A stretch of 64,000 nt of DNA from Bacteroidales bacterium (GTDB taxonomy: Bacteria > Bacteroidota > Bacteroidia > Bacteroidales > Tenuifilaceae). Position 1 is the first letter of the stretch; every line of letters starts with the position of its first letter. The DNA is taken from NCBI GenBank assembly GCA_013141385.1, contig JABFRB010000028.1:1-64000 (forward strand), in the 5' to 3' direction. The notes below the pieces were generated by a model that was given only the letters and a program-made list of their open reading frames with translations, was not told the origin of the DNA and made no database searches. Position numbers and translations under genes: made by a program. This document shows positions 5,621 to 35,081 of this stretch, in pieces.

Positions 5621-5746
5621 TTAAAAAACACCATCTTTTGTAGTTGGGTCTCCGTCACCACCCCTAATTTGGAGTAGTTCATTAATATTAAGGGTTTTAA
5701 ATCCTTTTGCCACTTTTTTTTCTTTTCTTTTTTTTAACGTTTTCAT
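5621..5746 (-). CDS. Putative double-glycine-leader peptide precursor (RiPP/secreted peptide-like), 41 aa
   Basis: A 41-codon minus-strand frame, ATG at 5746 and TAA at 5621. The very basic N-terminus (seven Lys and one Arg in the first 14 residues) is followed by NINELLQIRGGDGDPTT and a short Asp/Thr/Lys-rich tail. The E-L-L-x-I-x-G-G segment is the classic double-glycine leader used by C39-peptidase ABC exporters and seen on many Bacteroidota peptide precursors. Cleavage after GG would release an 11-residue product with no Cys and no Ser but two Thr. The gene is divergent from the CHAT protease gene, with 89 bp between the two start codons. No exporter or maturase gene is present in the window. 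There is no recognisable ribosome-binding site, which is normal for this phylum. It might be a chance frame, but the leader pattern argues otherwise. Confidence 0.6.
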   Translation of the reverse strand: MKTLKKRKEKKVAKGFKTLNINELLQIRGGDGDPTTKDGVF

Positions 5747-5776
5747 AATCTTAGGTTTTTAGTTAAACTTTTAGTT

Positions 5777-5784
5777 TATTTTTG
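5777..5784 (+). promoter_or_regulatory. Candidate -7 box (TATTTTTG) for CHAT gene
   Basis: Matches the Bacteroidota TAnnTTTG -7 consensus about 50 bp before the preferred ATG of the CHAT gene. No good TTTG -33 partner is visible. Confidence 0.35.
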
Positions 5785-5835
5785 TATTTATACTTAGTTT
5801 TTCGGCGCACTGTTAAGAACATTATCGCAATAATA

Positions 5836-8592
5836 ATGAATTCTTTTAAATCACAGTTTAATTACTTGATATTCAAAAATCTTGTTTTATTCTTAGCGGG
5901 TTTTTTTGTTGCTCTGACAGTAGATGCACAACAACTTACTAATGCCAATTATGCAAGTATACTTTACGATAGCAGTAAGGTATACTATTCAGTTGGAAAT
6001 TATAATAATGCTATAAAAGATTTAAATAGAATTCTTCTGCTAAAGAGTAAGTTACCAGATGATAACAGTCCTGAATACTTTAAGATATATAACCTGTTTG
6101 GGGTAGTTTATAGAAGACAGGGTGATCTAAGTAGGGCTATTGATTTTTACAAAAAAGCATCAAAAAGTACTTCCGATATTTTTAACTTATCAGTTATCAA
6201 TGGAAATATTGCCAATATTTATTCCTTAAAGGGAGATTATTCAAAAGCCATTTACTACTACGAAAACACCCTTCAGGTACTTGAAAAAAGCGATGATTCG
6301 AAGAGGTATCGCTACATGGCCGACTACAATCATAATGTTGGCTTTTGCTACTATAAGTTGGAGAATTACAGCCTTGCCCGAGATTACTACTTAAAAAGCA
6401 TTCAACTTGCCGAAAAGAATAAGCTGGGAGGGGTAGGTGAAACTTACTATAATAGTGGGCTAGTATATCAAAAACTAGACAGCTTGGAAAAAGCAAATTA
6501 TTGCTTTAAAAAGGCCATTGAATGTAATACCAAGGAGTTTGGAGAAAATCACTATATGACAGGAATGGCATATATGAACTATGCTGCCTTTTATTCAGAT
6601 ATCCGTGATTATAAGAATAGTTCTAAACTGTATAAAAAATCTCTTGCTATTTTGCAAAACACTCTTGGAGATAAACATCCTTATACATCGTTATGTCTTA
6701 AAAATATTGGATTTTTAAACTATCAATTGAATCAATACAAACAGGCTTTGATCTATTTTCAAAAATCACTTATAGCAAAGATATATAACTATAATGATAG
6801 CTCAGTATATGTAAATCCAGTCCCTGATATATTTCCAGACATGGATTTACTAGTTGTACTAAAACTAAAAGCACAGGCTTTTAAAAAATTGTCGGAACGC
6901 GAAAGAAAGGAAGAAAATCTTAAAGCAGCTCTTGCAACCCTTGAACTTACAACAGTTTTTATTGAGCAACTACGTACGGGTTATCTGTACGAGGGTTCTA
7001 AGCTGCAAATAGCAGCAAAGGAGCACGAAACTTACCTGTCTATAGTAGAAATAGCCAATGCCCTATACGAAATTTCAGGCGATTCTAAATACTTGGGTAT
7101 AGCATTTCGGTATGCTGAGTATAGCAAGTACGCTGTACTCAGGGAACTGAAAAACGAGGAAATGGCCAAGGGGGTTGCTGGAATACCCGATAGCATTAGC
7201 GATAACGAGCGTAGGGTAAAACAGCAAATTGCCAGCATTCGAATGCAGGTGGCAGATGAGAGCAAACTGGAACACCCGAATAGGCCGAAGATAGATAGGT
7301 GGAACGAGCAGCTGTTCAGCCTATACCAGAACCTTGAGGGGCTAATGCAGAGGCTCGAAAGCAATTATCCGCTTTACTTCAAGCAAAAGTATAGCAACCA
7401 AGTTGTAAGCGTAGAGCAGCTGCAGAAGTCAATGGGCAAAAATGAAGCTATACTCGAATACGTACTCGGCAACAATGCATTATATACCTTTACCATTACT
7501 AAGGAAACATTCCAACTTGTAAAGCAGGAGGCTGATAGTACCAGCCACACAAGTCTTAACTTTTTAATATCAGCCCTGCATAGCGAATACTCATCGGATT
7601 ATGCTGCCTACAGGAATTCCGCTTATGCCCTTTACAAGAAACTTATCTACCCCGTTGAGCCTTTGCTAAAAAACAAAAGCCTACTTATAATCCCAGATGG
7701 TGGGCTGAACCTTATCGCCTTTGATATACTCATAGACAAACCTTATCGGGATGGCGATAAGCGTGATTACAGGCAAGAATCATATTTACTAAAGAAATAT
7801 CCTATAGGCTATGCCTACTCGGCTACTTTATACAATAATACCTTAAGCAATACGTATAAAGGTTCACCCGATTTTCTTGGAATTGCACCCGATTACAAAA
7901 ACTCAAAGGATTCGCTAAGAAGCATTCCCTTGGGGTTACAGAATATTAGGAAGATTGCTCTGCTTACATTCGGAAAATCGCTAACGGGGAATAGTGCAAC
8001 TGAAGGGGCGTTTAAAAAATATTGTGGTAGGTACGGTATTATCCATTTCTACGCACATGGTTTTGAGGATACTCTTAACCCAGCCAACTCAAAACTTGTT
8101 CTATCCGCCCCTACAGATTCTGTAAACGATGGATACCTGCACGCCTGGGAGGTTTACAATATGCAACTGAATGCAGAACTGGTGGTGCTTGCATCCTGTT
8201 ACTCTGGATCCGGCAAAATGTCGAAGGGAGAAGGAGTGCTGAGCTTAAGTAGAAGTTTTATGTATGCTGGTAGCAAATCGTTAATAATGTCGCTTTGGGT
8301 TGCTTATGATAGATCCACAAACAGTATACTAAATAGTTTTTACCTGAATATGCTAAAAGGGATGCGAAAGGATGAGGCTCTTAGACTTGCAAAACTAGAG
8401 TATCTGGAAAATGCCGACCTAGCATCCCCACGTTTTTGGGCTGGTATAGTAGTAAATGGAAACCAAAATGCCTTATACAGTTATTGGTACTTAAAAAAGG
8501 CAATTATAGCAACTATAATTATTTTAATACTATTCCTCATTTTCAGAAAACGAAAAACGATAGGAACCAAGTTAAGGAAATTTTCACGCTAA
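5836..8592 (+). CDS. TPR-CHAT caspase-like protease, exported and membrane anchored
   Basis: A 918-residue protein from the ATG at 5836. An upstream in-frame ATG at 5782 would put 18 charged residues before the signal peptide. A signal peptide ends near VDAQQ. At least seven tetratricopeptide repeats follow (about residues 30-330), then a helical linker and a C-terminal CHAT domain (about 600-880). The CHAT caspase dyad is intact: His741 in HFYAHGF and Cys788 in LASCYSGSG. A single membrane segment (about 889-905) followed by basic RKRK suggests anchoring with the protease domain outside the cytoplasm. CHAT is a clan CD peptidase domain related to separase and caspases; TPRs usually bind the client. 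The substrate is unknown. Its neighbours are a divergent GG-leader peptide gene and a convergent membrane TPR gene. Confidence 0.88.
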   Translation: MNSFKSQFNYLIFKNLVLFLAGFFVALTVDAQQLTNANYASILYDSSKVYYSVGNYNNAIKDLNRILLLKSKLPDDNSPEYFKIYNLFGVVYRRQGDLSRAIDFYKKASKSTSDIFNLSVINGNIANIYSLKGDYSKAIYYYENTLQVLEKSDDSKRYRYMADYNHNVGFCYYKLENYSLARDYYLKSIQLAEKNKLGGVGETYYNSGLVYQKLDSLEKANYCFKKAIECNTKEFGENHYMTGMAYMNYAAFYSDIRDYKNSSKLYKKSLAILQNTLGDKHPYTSLCLKNIGFLNYQLNQYKQALIYFQKSLIAKIYNYNDSSVYVNPVPDIFPDMDLLVVLKLKAQAFKKLSERERKEENLKAALATLELTTVFIEQLRTGYLYEGSKLQIAAKEHETYLSIVEIANALYEISGDSKYLGIAFRYAEYSKYAVLRELKNEEMAKGVAGIPDSISDNERRVKQQIASIRMQVADESKLEHPNRPKIDRWNEQLFSLYQNLEGLMQRLESNYPLYFKQKYSNQVVSVEQLQKSMGKNEAILEYVLGNNALYTFTITKETFQLVKQEADSTSHTSLNFLISALHSEYSSDYAAYRNSAYALYKKLIYPVEPLLKNKSLLIIPDGGLNLIAFDILIDKPYRDGDKRDYRQESYLLKKYPIGYAYSATLYNNTLSNTYKGSPDFLGIAPDYKNSKDSLRSIPLGLQNIRKIALLTFGKSLTGNSATEGAFKKYCGRYGIIHFYAHGFEDTLNPANSKLVLSAPTDSVNDGYLHAWEVYNMQLNAELVVLASCYSGSGKMSKGEGVLSLSRSFMYAGSKSLIMSLWVAYDRSTNSILNSFYLNMLKGMRKDEALRLAKLEYLENADLASPRFWAGIVVNGNQNALYSYWYLKKAIIATIIILILFLIFRKRKTIGTKLRKFSR

Positions 8593-8710
8593 ATCGCTAA
8601 GTCACAAAGAAATTCAAAAGAGATATCAGAGTATAATTAATGGGCTAAAGAAAATTTTGAGGTGCTGGAAAAAAATCTTTGTGTAATACTTTGAGAACCT
8701 TTGTGTAATA
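8584..8710. repeat. Inverted repeat, 'CACGCAAAG' family copy
   Basis: TTTCACGCTAAATCGCTAAG..CACAAAG (8583-8610) is imperfectly complementary to TCTTTGTGTAATACTTTGAG and CTTTGTGTAATAG (about 8676-8711). It belongs to the same family as 5414-5523 and starts at the very end of the CHAT gene. It may act as a terminator-like structure. Confidence 0.5.
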
Positions 8711-8866
8711 GCTATTCAAAAAAGTCACAAAAATCCACCAAAAAGATTACCGAACCATTGTAAAATCAAATCCACTAAATATAATTTATATAGACTTTAT
8801 CTATTTTATATAATAATTACCCCTGTGGATTCTTTGTAATGTTAATACCTCCCTGGTGAGAAGTCA

Positions 8867-9739
8867 TTAATCACTGAGTTTCTTTAAAATACGCTTGGCC
8901 TTTTTGTAGTTATAATCATTGCCATCTACGATAGCCCGAAAAGTATTAATTGCTTTTTCTTTATCTCCAATTTTTAGGTAGCAAAGTCCTAGATACCATC
9001 TTGCTTGAGGAAAATAATCAAGTTTGCTCTGGTTATTAAGAACCTGTTCGAGGTAGTCGGCTGCTACGCTATATTTGCCAACCTCCATTAGAGCCAATCC
9101 AATGAATAAGTTTCGCTCAACTTCAATAGTTACGGATGATGGCAAATCTTTTAAAAGTAGTAGAGCATTTGTATACTCCCCATCCATATATTTCTGCTTG
9201 GCAATACTAAAAGAGTTGCTATTGATCATGTAACCAGAATAATCGTATGGGGCATAATATTTTGCGTAAAGGCTATTCTCCAACGAATCGTTGGGTTGAA
9301 AATAATACGCAATCCCACCTCCCGAGATAATTAGTACCGCAATAGAAGCAGCAACTAGCCAATATTTAAGTTTTCTATTTATAGAAAAAGTCCGAGTGGT
9401 GCTAGGATGTTCTTTGGCGGATACGTAGTTTCTATAAGCCTCTTCTAGTTTCTCCTTAAGTATAAGATTTTCAATAGAATTATTTATTTCTCTTTGTAGG
9501 TAGACCTCCTTCGAGAGTTCTAACCTCTTTTTTAGCGTGTGTTCAAATTCAACCCTTTGAGATGGTGATAATTCATTATCAGCATATTGATGCGTTTCTA
9601 CCTTAATTTTTTCTTCCTCGTATATTTTTGCTAAATATCCATCGGCGAGTATTTCATCCGCAACAATAGACATTTGTTCCAGAGGAAGTGTGTTGAGTAG
9701 AAAAGCAATAATCGTATCTCTATCAATCGGTAAGGTCAT
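8867..9739 (-). CDS. Single-pass membrane TPR protein (anti-sigma-like N-terminus)
   Basis: A 290-residue protein with a cytosolic helical N-terminus containing YADNELSPSQRVEFEHTL, reminiscent of the region before the membrane segment in Bacteroidota anti-sigma-like proteins. No zinc-binding Cys/His pair is seen. A membrane segment lies near residues 128-148 (YWLVAASIAVLIISGG), and about three TPR repeats occupy 165-285. The gene is convergent with the CHAT protease. Similar gene pairs in Bacteroidota often include an ECF sigma factor, but none is found here. It is probably a membrane scaffold working with the CHAT-TPR protein; that is inference from position and shared TPR architecture. Confidence 0.75.
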   Translation of the reverse strand: MTLPIDRDTIIAFLLNTLPLEQMSIVADEILADGYLAKIYEEEKIKVETHQYADNELSPSQRVEFEHTLKKRLELSKEVYLQREINNSIENLILKEKLEEAYRNYVSAKEHPSTTRTFSINRKLKYWLVAASIAVLIISGGGIAYYFQPNDSLENSLYAKYYAPYDYSGYMINSNSFSIAKQKYMDGEYTNALLLLKDLPSSVTIEVERNLFIGLALMEVGKYSVAADYLEQVLNNQSKLDYFPQARWYLGLCYLKIGDKEKAINTFRAIVDGNDYNYKKAKRILKKLSD

Positions 9740-34243: not shown

Positions 34244-34990
34244 CTACTCACCATTTTTAATCCAATCATACCCTTTCTCCTCAAGTTCAAGTGCAAGTTC
34301 TTTGCCAGCACTTTTTACAATTTTACCACTGTAAAGGATATGTACAAAGTCTGGAACAATATAGTCAAGCAATCTTTGATAGTGTGTAATTACTATTGAA
34401 GCGTTATCTGGGCGTTTTAACTTATTTACACCATTTGCCACAATGCGCAACGCATCGATATCGAGACCAGAATCAGTCTCATCAAGAATCGAGAGCTTCG
34501 GTTCAAGCATCGCCATCTGAAAGATTTCATTTTTCTTCTTTTCTCCTCCAGAGAATCCTTCGTTCACTGAGCGATTGGTTAATGCAGAATCAATTTCAAC
34601 GAGTTCTTTCTTCTCGCGCATCATTTTTAAAAAATCTGATGCGGATAATGGTTCTAATCCCCTGTATTTACGTTGCTCATTAACAGCCGCTTTCATAAAG
34701 TTAACCATGCTAACGCCTGGTATTTCAATAGGATATTGAAAACTTAGAAATAACCCTTCACGCGAACGAACTTCGGGTGATAGATCAAGTAAATTTTTCC
34801 CGTTGAAAAGGATCTCACCATGTGTCACCTCAAAGATTTCTCTCCCTGCAAGAACCGCAGCAAGCGTGCTTTTTCCAGAGCCATTGGGTCCCATGATCGC
34901 ATGAACTTCACCTGCGTTAATCTCTAGATTAATTCCCTTTAATATCTCTTTGCCTTTTATGTTGGCGTGTAAGTTTTTAATTACTAGCAT
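34244..34990 (-). CDS. sufC: SufC ATPase
   Basis: A 248-residue ABC-type ATPase without membrane domain. Walker A is GPNGSGKSTLA, the ABC signature FSGGEKKKNE and Walker B LSILDETDSGLD, the last being the SufC-type variant. It drives conformational change in the SufBC2D scaffold. It lies about 117 bp after sufB, with a repeat of the CACAAAG family in the gap. Confidence 0.98.
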   Translation of the reverse strand: MLVIKNLHANIKGKEILKGINLEINAGEVHAIMGPNGSGKSTLAAVLAGREIFEVTHGEILFNGKNLLDLSPEVRSREGLFLSFQYPIEIPGVSMVNFMKAAVNEQRKYRGLEPLSASDFLKMMREKKELVEIDSALTNRSVNEGFSGGEKKKNEIFQMAMLEPKLSILDETDSGLDIDALRIVANGVNKLKRPDNASIVITHYQRLLDYIVPDFVHILYSGKIVKSAGKELALELEEKGYDWIKNGE

Positions 34991-35022
34991 ATTAAAATGT
35001 TTATTATAAATCTTTCTTGAAT

Positions 35023-35081
35023 TTTTGTGCCTTTGTAACTTTGCATCAATAATTAAACGCTAAGGCTCAAAGACGCTAAGT
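35023..35081. repeat. Inverted repeat, 'CACGCAAAG' family copy
   Basis: TTTTTGTGCCTTTGTAACTT (from 35024) is complementary, imperfectly, to AACGCTAAGGCTCAAAGACG (from 35057). Same family as 5414-5523; it sits in the sufB-sufC spacer and could tune expression of the distal genes. Confidence 0.5.

Follow-up and report, generated by a model that had tools for sequence, protein, structure and literature searches.

Receptors of the RRNPP group (NprR, Rap, PlcR and Rgg) are cytoplasmic and bind re-imported peptides. In Craspase, cleavage of Csx30 by the TPR-CHAT protease Csx29 is reported to lift sigma inhibition, and structural changes pass from its TPR domain to its catalytic site (PMC10028731, available part). 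CHAT proteins, named after the heterocyst protein HetF, are found in the gene context of ECF54, where proteolytic control has been proposed; in the available part of that source, ECF54 is spoken of as acting without an anti-sigma factor and a peptide is not named (PMC8999054). HetC of Nostoc is a PCAT, a C39 exporter of unknown substrate, and the accessible text reports that a GG-leader gene was not found near hetC (PMC10986499). PatX is cut by the peptidase PatP (PMC12756182, available part). Double-glycine (GG) RiPP precursors are described from Bacteroidales, and the word CHAT is absent from that paper as available (PMC10352776). Among the matches listed by our literature search, which left subscription journals mostly outside its scope, none joins CHAT proteases with double-glycine peptides. 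Here we describe a pairing of such peptides with CHAT proteases that looks like an undescribed peptide-to-protease signalling system.

We analysed the window, a stretch of DNA of 64,000 nucleotides, in which a first-pass annotation had placed a 41-aa peptide with a double-glycine leader and an 11-residue tail on the minus strand. The translation of window:5621-5746 (-) agrees exactly, giving MKTLKKRKEKKVAKGFKTLNINELLQIRGGDGDPTTKDGVF followed by a stop. The leader spacing is classical, with I at -4, L at -7 and L at -12 before the cut; by its short ORF, its GG and its hydrophobics at -4/-7/-12, the product fits the C39/PCAT double-glycine peptides. A block, GTTTAACTAAAAACCTAAGATT, precedes the ATG and recurs, altered, at many paralogues. 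In model scans that included the bacteriocin, ComC and EntF families, no model scored above its cut-off on the window peptide (P0001): bacteriocin_sig TIGR01847 reached 15.5 bits (curated cut-off 15.7), ComC PF03047 12.5 bits (20.4) and EntF NF033383 12.3 bits (35). In the same genome, the NF033214 ComC model matched 5/24 peptides (best E 1.4e-6, by E-value alone, without cut-off comparison) and TIGR04149 gave weak matches, also without cut-off comparison, in 2/24. Among eight distant peptides, TIGR04149 reached 14.1 and 15.1 bits in two, under its cut-off of 25 bits, and did not match the other six. No maturase was found by Pfam among the four window neighbours scanned. We weighed the bacteriocin and RiPP readings against these scores and set them aside.

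The first-pass annotation was also right that a divergent gene for an exported TPR-CHAT protein begins 89 bp from the peptide start: the gene opens with the ATG at 5836 and matches PF12770 at 8.9e-49, plus TPR repeats (Pfam; Table 1). The signal peptide and membrane helices of the CHAT protein and of the 290-aa protein convergent with it were read by eye. The CHAT His and Cys are also invariant in 40/40 rows of alignment A5. An AlphaFold2 model of the CHAT protein (mean pLDDT 86.4; model residue n is protein residue n+1) has helices at 2-28 and 883-916 and two segments with pLDDT <50, one of which, residues 789-797, directly follows the catalytic Cys. The model has a TPR-CHAT fold: its best PDB match by Foldseek E-value was Csx29 (8eey_B, E 2.7e-13), and the Csx29 entries 8eex_B and 7y9x_B matched too. 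Separase came next, several of the separases among the top matches having been solved with securin, and the third match was DdvA, a transmembrane anti-sigma factor. Whole-protease superpositions are loose, with TM 0.38-0.45 for 8eey_B and 0.38-0.51 over the Csx29 entries. Sequence matches of the TPR region included NprR (4gpk, E 1.8e-15), kinesin light chain, LGN and many other TPR proteins. Kinesin light chain, LGN and NprR bind peptides. PADLOC returned a generic TPR model alone.

Table 1. Features of the peptide-CHAT locus in the window.
Feature	Position	Strand	Basis
Tail DGDPTTKDGVF (predicted exported product, 11 residues) with stop codon	5621..5656	-	Translation
Peptide leader, 30 residues from Met to GG (MKTLKKRKEKKVAKGFKTLNINELLQIRGG)	5657..5746	-	Translation; codon selection
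Divergent intergenic region, 89 bp, between peptide and CHAT starts	5747..5835	.	Coordinates
TPR-CHAT protease of 918 aa with TPR superhelix and CHAT; signal peptide and C-terminal membrane helix read by eye	5836..8592	+	Pfam, alignment, AlphaFold2 model
CHAT domain; all 10/10 paralogues keep His (residue 741) and Cys (residue 788)	7618..8460	+	Pfam, alignment
Membrane TPR protein of 290 aa, convergent with CHAT gene; helices at the N-terminus, a single membrane helix read by eye, and a TPR domain	8867..9739	-	Pfam; neighbour counts

Searching the genome with the window peptide returned 14 matches at E<=10. A paralogue profile returned 33, of which 28 at E<=0.01, with scores that are not independent because the profile was built from most of these matches. 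All 28 lie within 3.7 kb of a CHAT gene or CHAT fragment; one has an in-frame stop and one (C6:29141) lacks its GG. The genome carries 10 CHAT genes, each above the PF12770 cut-off, and one broken CHAT stretch. At least one intact divergent peptide accompanies nine of the ten genes, and the tenth (C6:30k) has a decayed remnant alone, as read by eye. There are tandem arrays as well: C16:149k has four copies, of which one leaves the frame after GG, C21:13k has three, and C21:155-159k has twelve ORFs. The peptides form two sequence classes plus one outlier at L031, the second class being confined, within this genome, to L014 and L032.

Some of these loci have features of their own. The twelve tandem ORFs, of the second class, surround a broken CHAT stretch with two in-frame stops (C21:155709-156785) at L014:5327-8716, upstream of an intact CHAT gene. 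Larger GG ORFs adjoin the peptide-CHAT cassette at L011:8609-14108 and L032:4579-7085; the ORFs beside them resemble a grasp-with-spasm modified-peptide locus. At type A loci, e.g. L009, L013, L065 and L067, an imperfect inverted repeat like TGTTCYTTARTTRGRACA was seen by eye ~35-60 bp before the peptide ATG, between the peptide and CHAT genes. At L013, both arms are changed together (GTATC...GATAC); thus, the repeat may be a shared operator.

The leader codons are under purifying selection. The pN/pS ratio, taken over all pairs of related sequences, was 0.35 for 27 leaders and 0.41 for 14 leaders, a set that includes the unrelated row L032:6891. The other forward frames gave 0.82 and 0.99 (with 112 and 52 stops) for the 27 leaders, and 0.91 and 0.80 (with 55 and 16 stops) for the 14. 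The homologues and the codon conservation on which the first-pass reading of this frame depended are thus both present.

The 76 unique tails have a median of 13 residues (range 9-39); 57 start with Asp or Glu, 75 are without Cys, and the tail product is mostly acidic across the family. An acidic residue followed by hydrophobics forms a core in 42/76 tails, versus a mean of 23.7 and a maximum of 37 after shuffling, a descriptive comparison because the pattern was written after the tails had been viewed. The GG cleavage codons coincide exactly with runs of 7-9 G at L009:8912-9540, L010:8559 and L061:5797, and also at L064:3714, 5656 and 5804, L067:5314, and L077:5522 and 5799. In three 8-G copies (L009:9430, L064:5656 and L067:5314) the frame is lost directly behind the GG, a hint that slippage may turn the tail on and off.

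The GG peptide is a mark of particular CHAT clades in Bacteroidota. We scanned named genomes with the CHAT alignment and took the best 80 of 154 relatives, which correspond to 78 distinct loci; a GG-leader regex matched up to 2.5 kb upstream in 21/68 loci with enough upstream sequence. For a position control, one GG-leader regex was applied to 58 CHAT loci, which are not independent because several come from one genome. It gave 24 matches in 18 loci within 500 bp upstream on the divergent strand, 0 upstream on the other strand, and 0 and 1 on the two downstream strands; the far flanks gave 16 matches per 321,901 bp over both strands. An order-level search with distant CHATs matched 152/393 genomes, and its best 30 loci were scanned for the peptide. 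CHAT frames of up to 967 aa had a peptide in 14/14 loci (13 divergent, and L189 with its peptide on the CHAT strand; three of these loci had already come up among the named genomes). A peptide was found in 0/13 loci with CHAT frames of at least 1032 aa and about 720-1130 bp upstream, three more of the 16 longer CHATs having almost no upstream sequence. On a tree of 127 CHATs, 7 changes suffice for the peptide label, versus 32.8 when shuffled, and 0/500 shuffles were as low; the support values (FastTree) are local, and the tree has some long deep branches.

In type A, the window's clade, the peptide is present in 22 of 24 rows (21 by regex, L072 by eye); of the other two, one has a remnant and L068 has GG ORFs only beyond 1 kb. 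Type B has it in 17/17 rows (16 by regex, L079 by eye). Twenty wider stretches (L199-L218), eleven of which are known loci again, contain a plausible peptide in 17 cases, four of them on the CHAT strand (L208, L210, L211 and L218); L214 has two peptides, beyond its ECF gene. In the wider stretches of L213 and L217 a convincing peptide was not found, though an exporter adjoins the CHAT gene. Peptides occur at CHATs only 24-32% identical to the window CHAT. Twenty-nine CHAT loci sampled across the phylum (L140-L168), not all of them with much sequence upstream, yielded no convincing peptide; upstream regex matches at L143 and L154 were dropped as chance-like.

The own-genome peptide profile (A2) matched 3 of 295 genomes of the order, the own one included. 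The peptide sequence is thus a poor probe by itself, and the search succeeded once it was anchored on the protease. One of the two outside matches (L036), a Cys-containing GG peptide near a transposase-like ORF (by eye) and not a CHAT gene, was rejected. The second (L035/L138) is a GG peptide (MKKFKKLTIAQLQKIKGGDDSGTT...) at L138:6522-6650 (-), divergent from a TPR-SpoIIE phosphatase gene at 6847-8898 (+) and not from a CHAT gene, a hint that GG peptides may exist for other TPR sensors too.

The first-pass annotation saw no exporter near the peptide and suggested an export system encoded elsewhere. Both points are supported. A C39 exporter was not found in the window, where the sole match of the C39 model is the ABC protein at 34247-35059, a member of the Suf cluster. 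Above cut-off, the C39 model matches the genome six times; three of these matches are strong and fall in frames of 718-733 aa. One of the strong matches is at L031, where C39, HlyD, peptide and CHAT stand in a row; this exporter has C39 and ABC domains (Pfam) and could serve other loci of the genome. Besides L031, a C39 exporter adjoins the peptide-CHAT pair at L078, L200, L202, L207 and L212 and, cut off by the stretch end, at L201.

We counted neighbours at 38 clade loci with 5 kb on both sides and at 24 other loci, in stretches of 5-8 kb each side. A membrane TPR gene lies within 8 kb of CHAT at 37/38 clade loci versus 14/24 other loci, and an ECF gene at 19/38 versus 10/24. Histidine kinase genes were found at 12/38 versus 0/24, C39-ABC genes at 8/38 versus 0/24 and HlyD genes at 6/38 versus 0/24. 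By these counts, ECF and membrane TPR genes belong to CHAT loci generally, whereas kinase and exporter go with the peptide clades. The peptide, whose co-occurrence with CHAT-TPR and C39 ABC genes the first-pass annotation proposed as a check, pairs clade-wide with CHAT, and eight of the 38 clade loci have a C39-ABC gene. Two of these eight (L213 and L217) are without a peptide, and at L013 the C39 gene may export the product of a different GG ORF at that locus. In the other 30 clade loci a C39 gene was not found within the 5-8 kb each side; L200, L207 and L214, which have too little flank for the count, carry an exporter as well.

Several distant loci share an order of HisKA kinase, membrane TPR protein, peptide, divergent CHAT and ECF sigma factor (Pfam for examples), and several also carry a C39 peptidase-ABC exporter and HlyD. 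From its gene context, the 290-aa membrane TPR protein may be anti-sigma-like. It is below the anti-sigma cut-offs (zf-HC2, 12.7 versus 22.2 bits; NF052375, 14.9 versus 100), and an anti-sigma domain is absent among its 50 Foldseek matches listed, all TPR-type folds. The membrane TPR proteins of the distant example loci gave no anti-sigma model match at 0.01 (Pfam). Sigma70_r2 is above cut-off in L099 and L115, with region 4 below cut-off or absent. An ECF gene was not found beside the nine own loci tested (model match under 1e-12), so the ECF partner of type A, if any, is encoded elsewhere. At L102:8217-9617, one frame matches both the ECF and the membrane TPR models, possibly a fusion of sigma factor and membrane regulator; if so, it would support a partnership of the two.

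Judged from sequence distances, the peptide varies with the TPR half of the protease more closely than with its catalytic half. Identity between the window and its nearest relative is 68% in the TPR half, compared with 90% in the CHAT half. L014 and L032, which carry the second peptide class, share 67-82% identity with the remaining type A paralogues in the CHAT domain but only 39-43% in the TPR domain; the TPR domains of those remaining paralogues are 64-85% identical to one another. Over 23 type A loci, tail distance correlated with TPR distance with r 0.60 (0/2000 permutations; partial 0.55 given CHAT) and with CHAT distance with r 0.32 (35/2000 permutations; partial 0.11 given TPR). Without the second peptide class, which may be one evolutionary event, the partial values were 0.54 (TPR) and -0.20 (CHAT). 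However, the correlation of leader with TPR distance (0.76) is higher than that of the tails. This is not predicted by a receptor that reads only tails, so part of the signal must come from linkage to the CHAT 5' end. Because the peptide gene lies next to this end, which encodes the TPR half, shared recombination tracts could co-vary peptide and TPR domain without contact.

We propose that the ORF encodes the precursor of a secreted signalling peptide that switches the neighbouring protease and, through it, an anti-sigma/ECF pathway; we rate the complete chain at even chances. The precursor would be cytoplasmic, and a C39 peptidase-ABC exporter would cut after GG and export the acidic product (11 residues here); for the window peptide the exporter would be encoded elsewhere in the genome, as it lies beside the pair in several relatives. 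This predicted cleavage and export step is well supported, by leader anatomy and gene clustering. The tail may then bind the TPR superhelix of the periplasmic, membrane-anchored TPR-CHAT protease, as the clade-wide pairing and TPR covariation suggest. Binding may switch the protease, whose catalytic loop is modelled as disordered. By gene order and likeness to Craspase, the protease would act on its anti-sigma-like partner, the membrane TPR protein, and free the ECF sigma factor; an alternative or added output would be action on an orphan histidine kinase. Against a periplasmic ligand, a C39 exporter with HlyD normally carries its product past the periplasm, where the receptor sits.

The first-pass annotation had proposed that the adjacent protease processes or senses the peptide. 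The neighbouring protease does emerge as a meaningful partner; processing is less likely, because C39 exporters cluster with the pair in relatives and because leaders are cut in the cytoplasm, whereas the CHAT protein appears to lie outside it. The peptide might still be a substrate after export, trimmed or degraded by the periplasmic CHAT protease as maturase or signal terminator while the signal acts elsewhere. Adjacency and clade-wide pairing suit a protease-substrate pair equally well, the acidic-hydrophobic core could be a recognition site, and periplasmic peptidases can cut exported signal precursors, as with PatX and PatP (PMC12756182, available part). We nevertheless consider a substrate role unlikely: the peptide covaries with the TPR half more strongly than with the catalytic half, the tails are already only 9-39 aa, and the ECF and membrane TPR partners would be left unexplained. 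Inhibition of the protease by a securin-like pseudo-substrate or TPR-bound clamp, so that loss of the peptide and not its arrival activates, is a rather improbable account. The separases solved with securin speak for it, as do the acidic tail that could occupy the active site and the tandem copies (twelve ORFs at L014), which suit a dose-controlled inhibitor; it needs export to the periplasm just as our proposal does, and sequence does not show whether the peptide would activate or inhibit. Most of the data behind our proposal suit the substrate and inhibitor roles too.

If the peptide were a C39-class toxin like a bacteriocin, with the CHAT protein as immunity, this would suit the likeness of the leaders to those of bacteriocins (TIGR01847, 15.5 bits versus a cut-off of 15.7). 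But the tails are short (median 13 aa), mostly acidic and without Cys in 75/76, and the recurring partners are regulators, making a toxin very unlikely. Finally, the ORF could be a chance frame or a hitch-hiking relic without function, as might be thought from the decayed copy that stands alone at one CHAT gene and the three copies out of frame after GG. Purifying selection, the position and strand control, tandem multiplication and presence at CHATs 24-32% identical leave this scarcely credible for the window ORF, and the position control, the split between shorter and longer CHATs and the codon selection refute it as a general account.

Beyond what one window offered, the analysis brought in tandem paralogues, clade-wide pairing, and membrane TPR, ECF and kinase partners. 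The peptide gene is tiny, of a kind that gene finders usually miss, and belongs to a family found beside a caspase-like protease in many Bacteroidota; peptides shorter than usual annotation limits may explain why the pairing was missed so far. CHAT (caspase-like) proteases outside CRISPR gain a concrete candidate trigger, and the GG peptides of Bacteroidota a candidate receptor. More tentatively, and with somewhat less than an even chance of being right, this may be a new form of Gram-negative peptide communication. C39-exported GG peptides, extracellular or periplasmic, would allosterically switch TPR-CHAT proteases through paralogue-specific peptide-TPR pairs, with cleavage of a membrane anti-sigma factor as relay. 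If true, one genome would hold about ten private channels, some tuned by slippage in the G tract over the cleavage codons. Several genomes have exporter, peptide, putative receptor and regulators together, so the idea is directly testable.

How does this system compare with described ones? CHAT genes beside ECF genes (PMC8999054) and cleavage of a sigma inhibitor by a CHAT protease (PMC10028731) were already known, as far as the available parts of these sources go; what is added here is the peptide and its exporter, and how faithfully both keep to certain CHAT clades. With ECF54, the window system shares CHAT proteins in its gene context. It resembles C39 (PCAT) GG peptides such as ComC/CSP and the pneumococcal GG peptides in the -4/-7/-12 hydrophobics of the leader, the C39-ABC and HlyD genes beside several copies and the short linear product, whereas here the constant partner is a caspase-like protease, the tails are mostly acidic and the hosts are Bacteroidota. 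The GG RiPP precursors of Bacteroidales, of TIGR04149 and other types, share the GG motif, a PCAT and the taxonomic order (PMC10352776, available part); however, the distant peptides do not reach the TIGR04149 cut-off and the window neighbours scanned are without a maturase. PatX and HetC of Nostoc likewise combine an exported regulatory peptide and a C39 exporter; they differ in PatX being cut by PatP and, in the accessible text (PMC10986499), in the lack of a GG-leader gene near hetC. As in RRNPP receptors, the proposed peptide sensor is a TPR superhelix, NprR being among the TPR matches, but the TPR superhelix here reads as exported and is fused to a protease. In Craspase (Cas7-11, Csx29, Csx30 and CASP-sigma) too, an ECF sigma factor and a sigma inhibitor go with a TPR-CHAT protease. 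RNA is the activator of Csx29, with Cas7-11, whereas here the protease reads as exported and membrane-anchored, with a secreted peptide as candidate trigger. The system is best read as a peptide-gated counterpart of Craspase.
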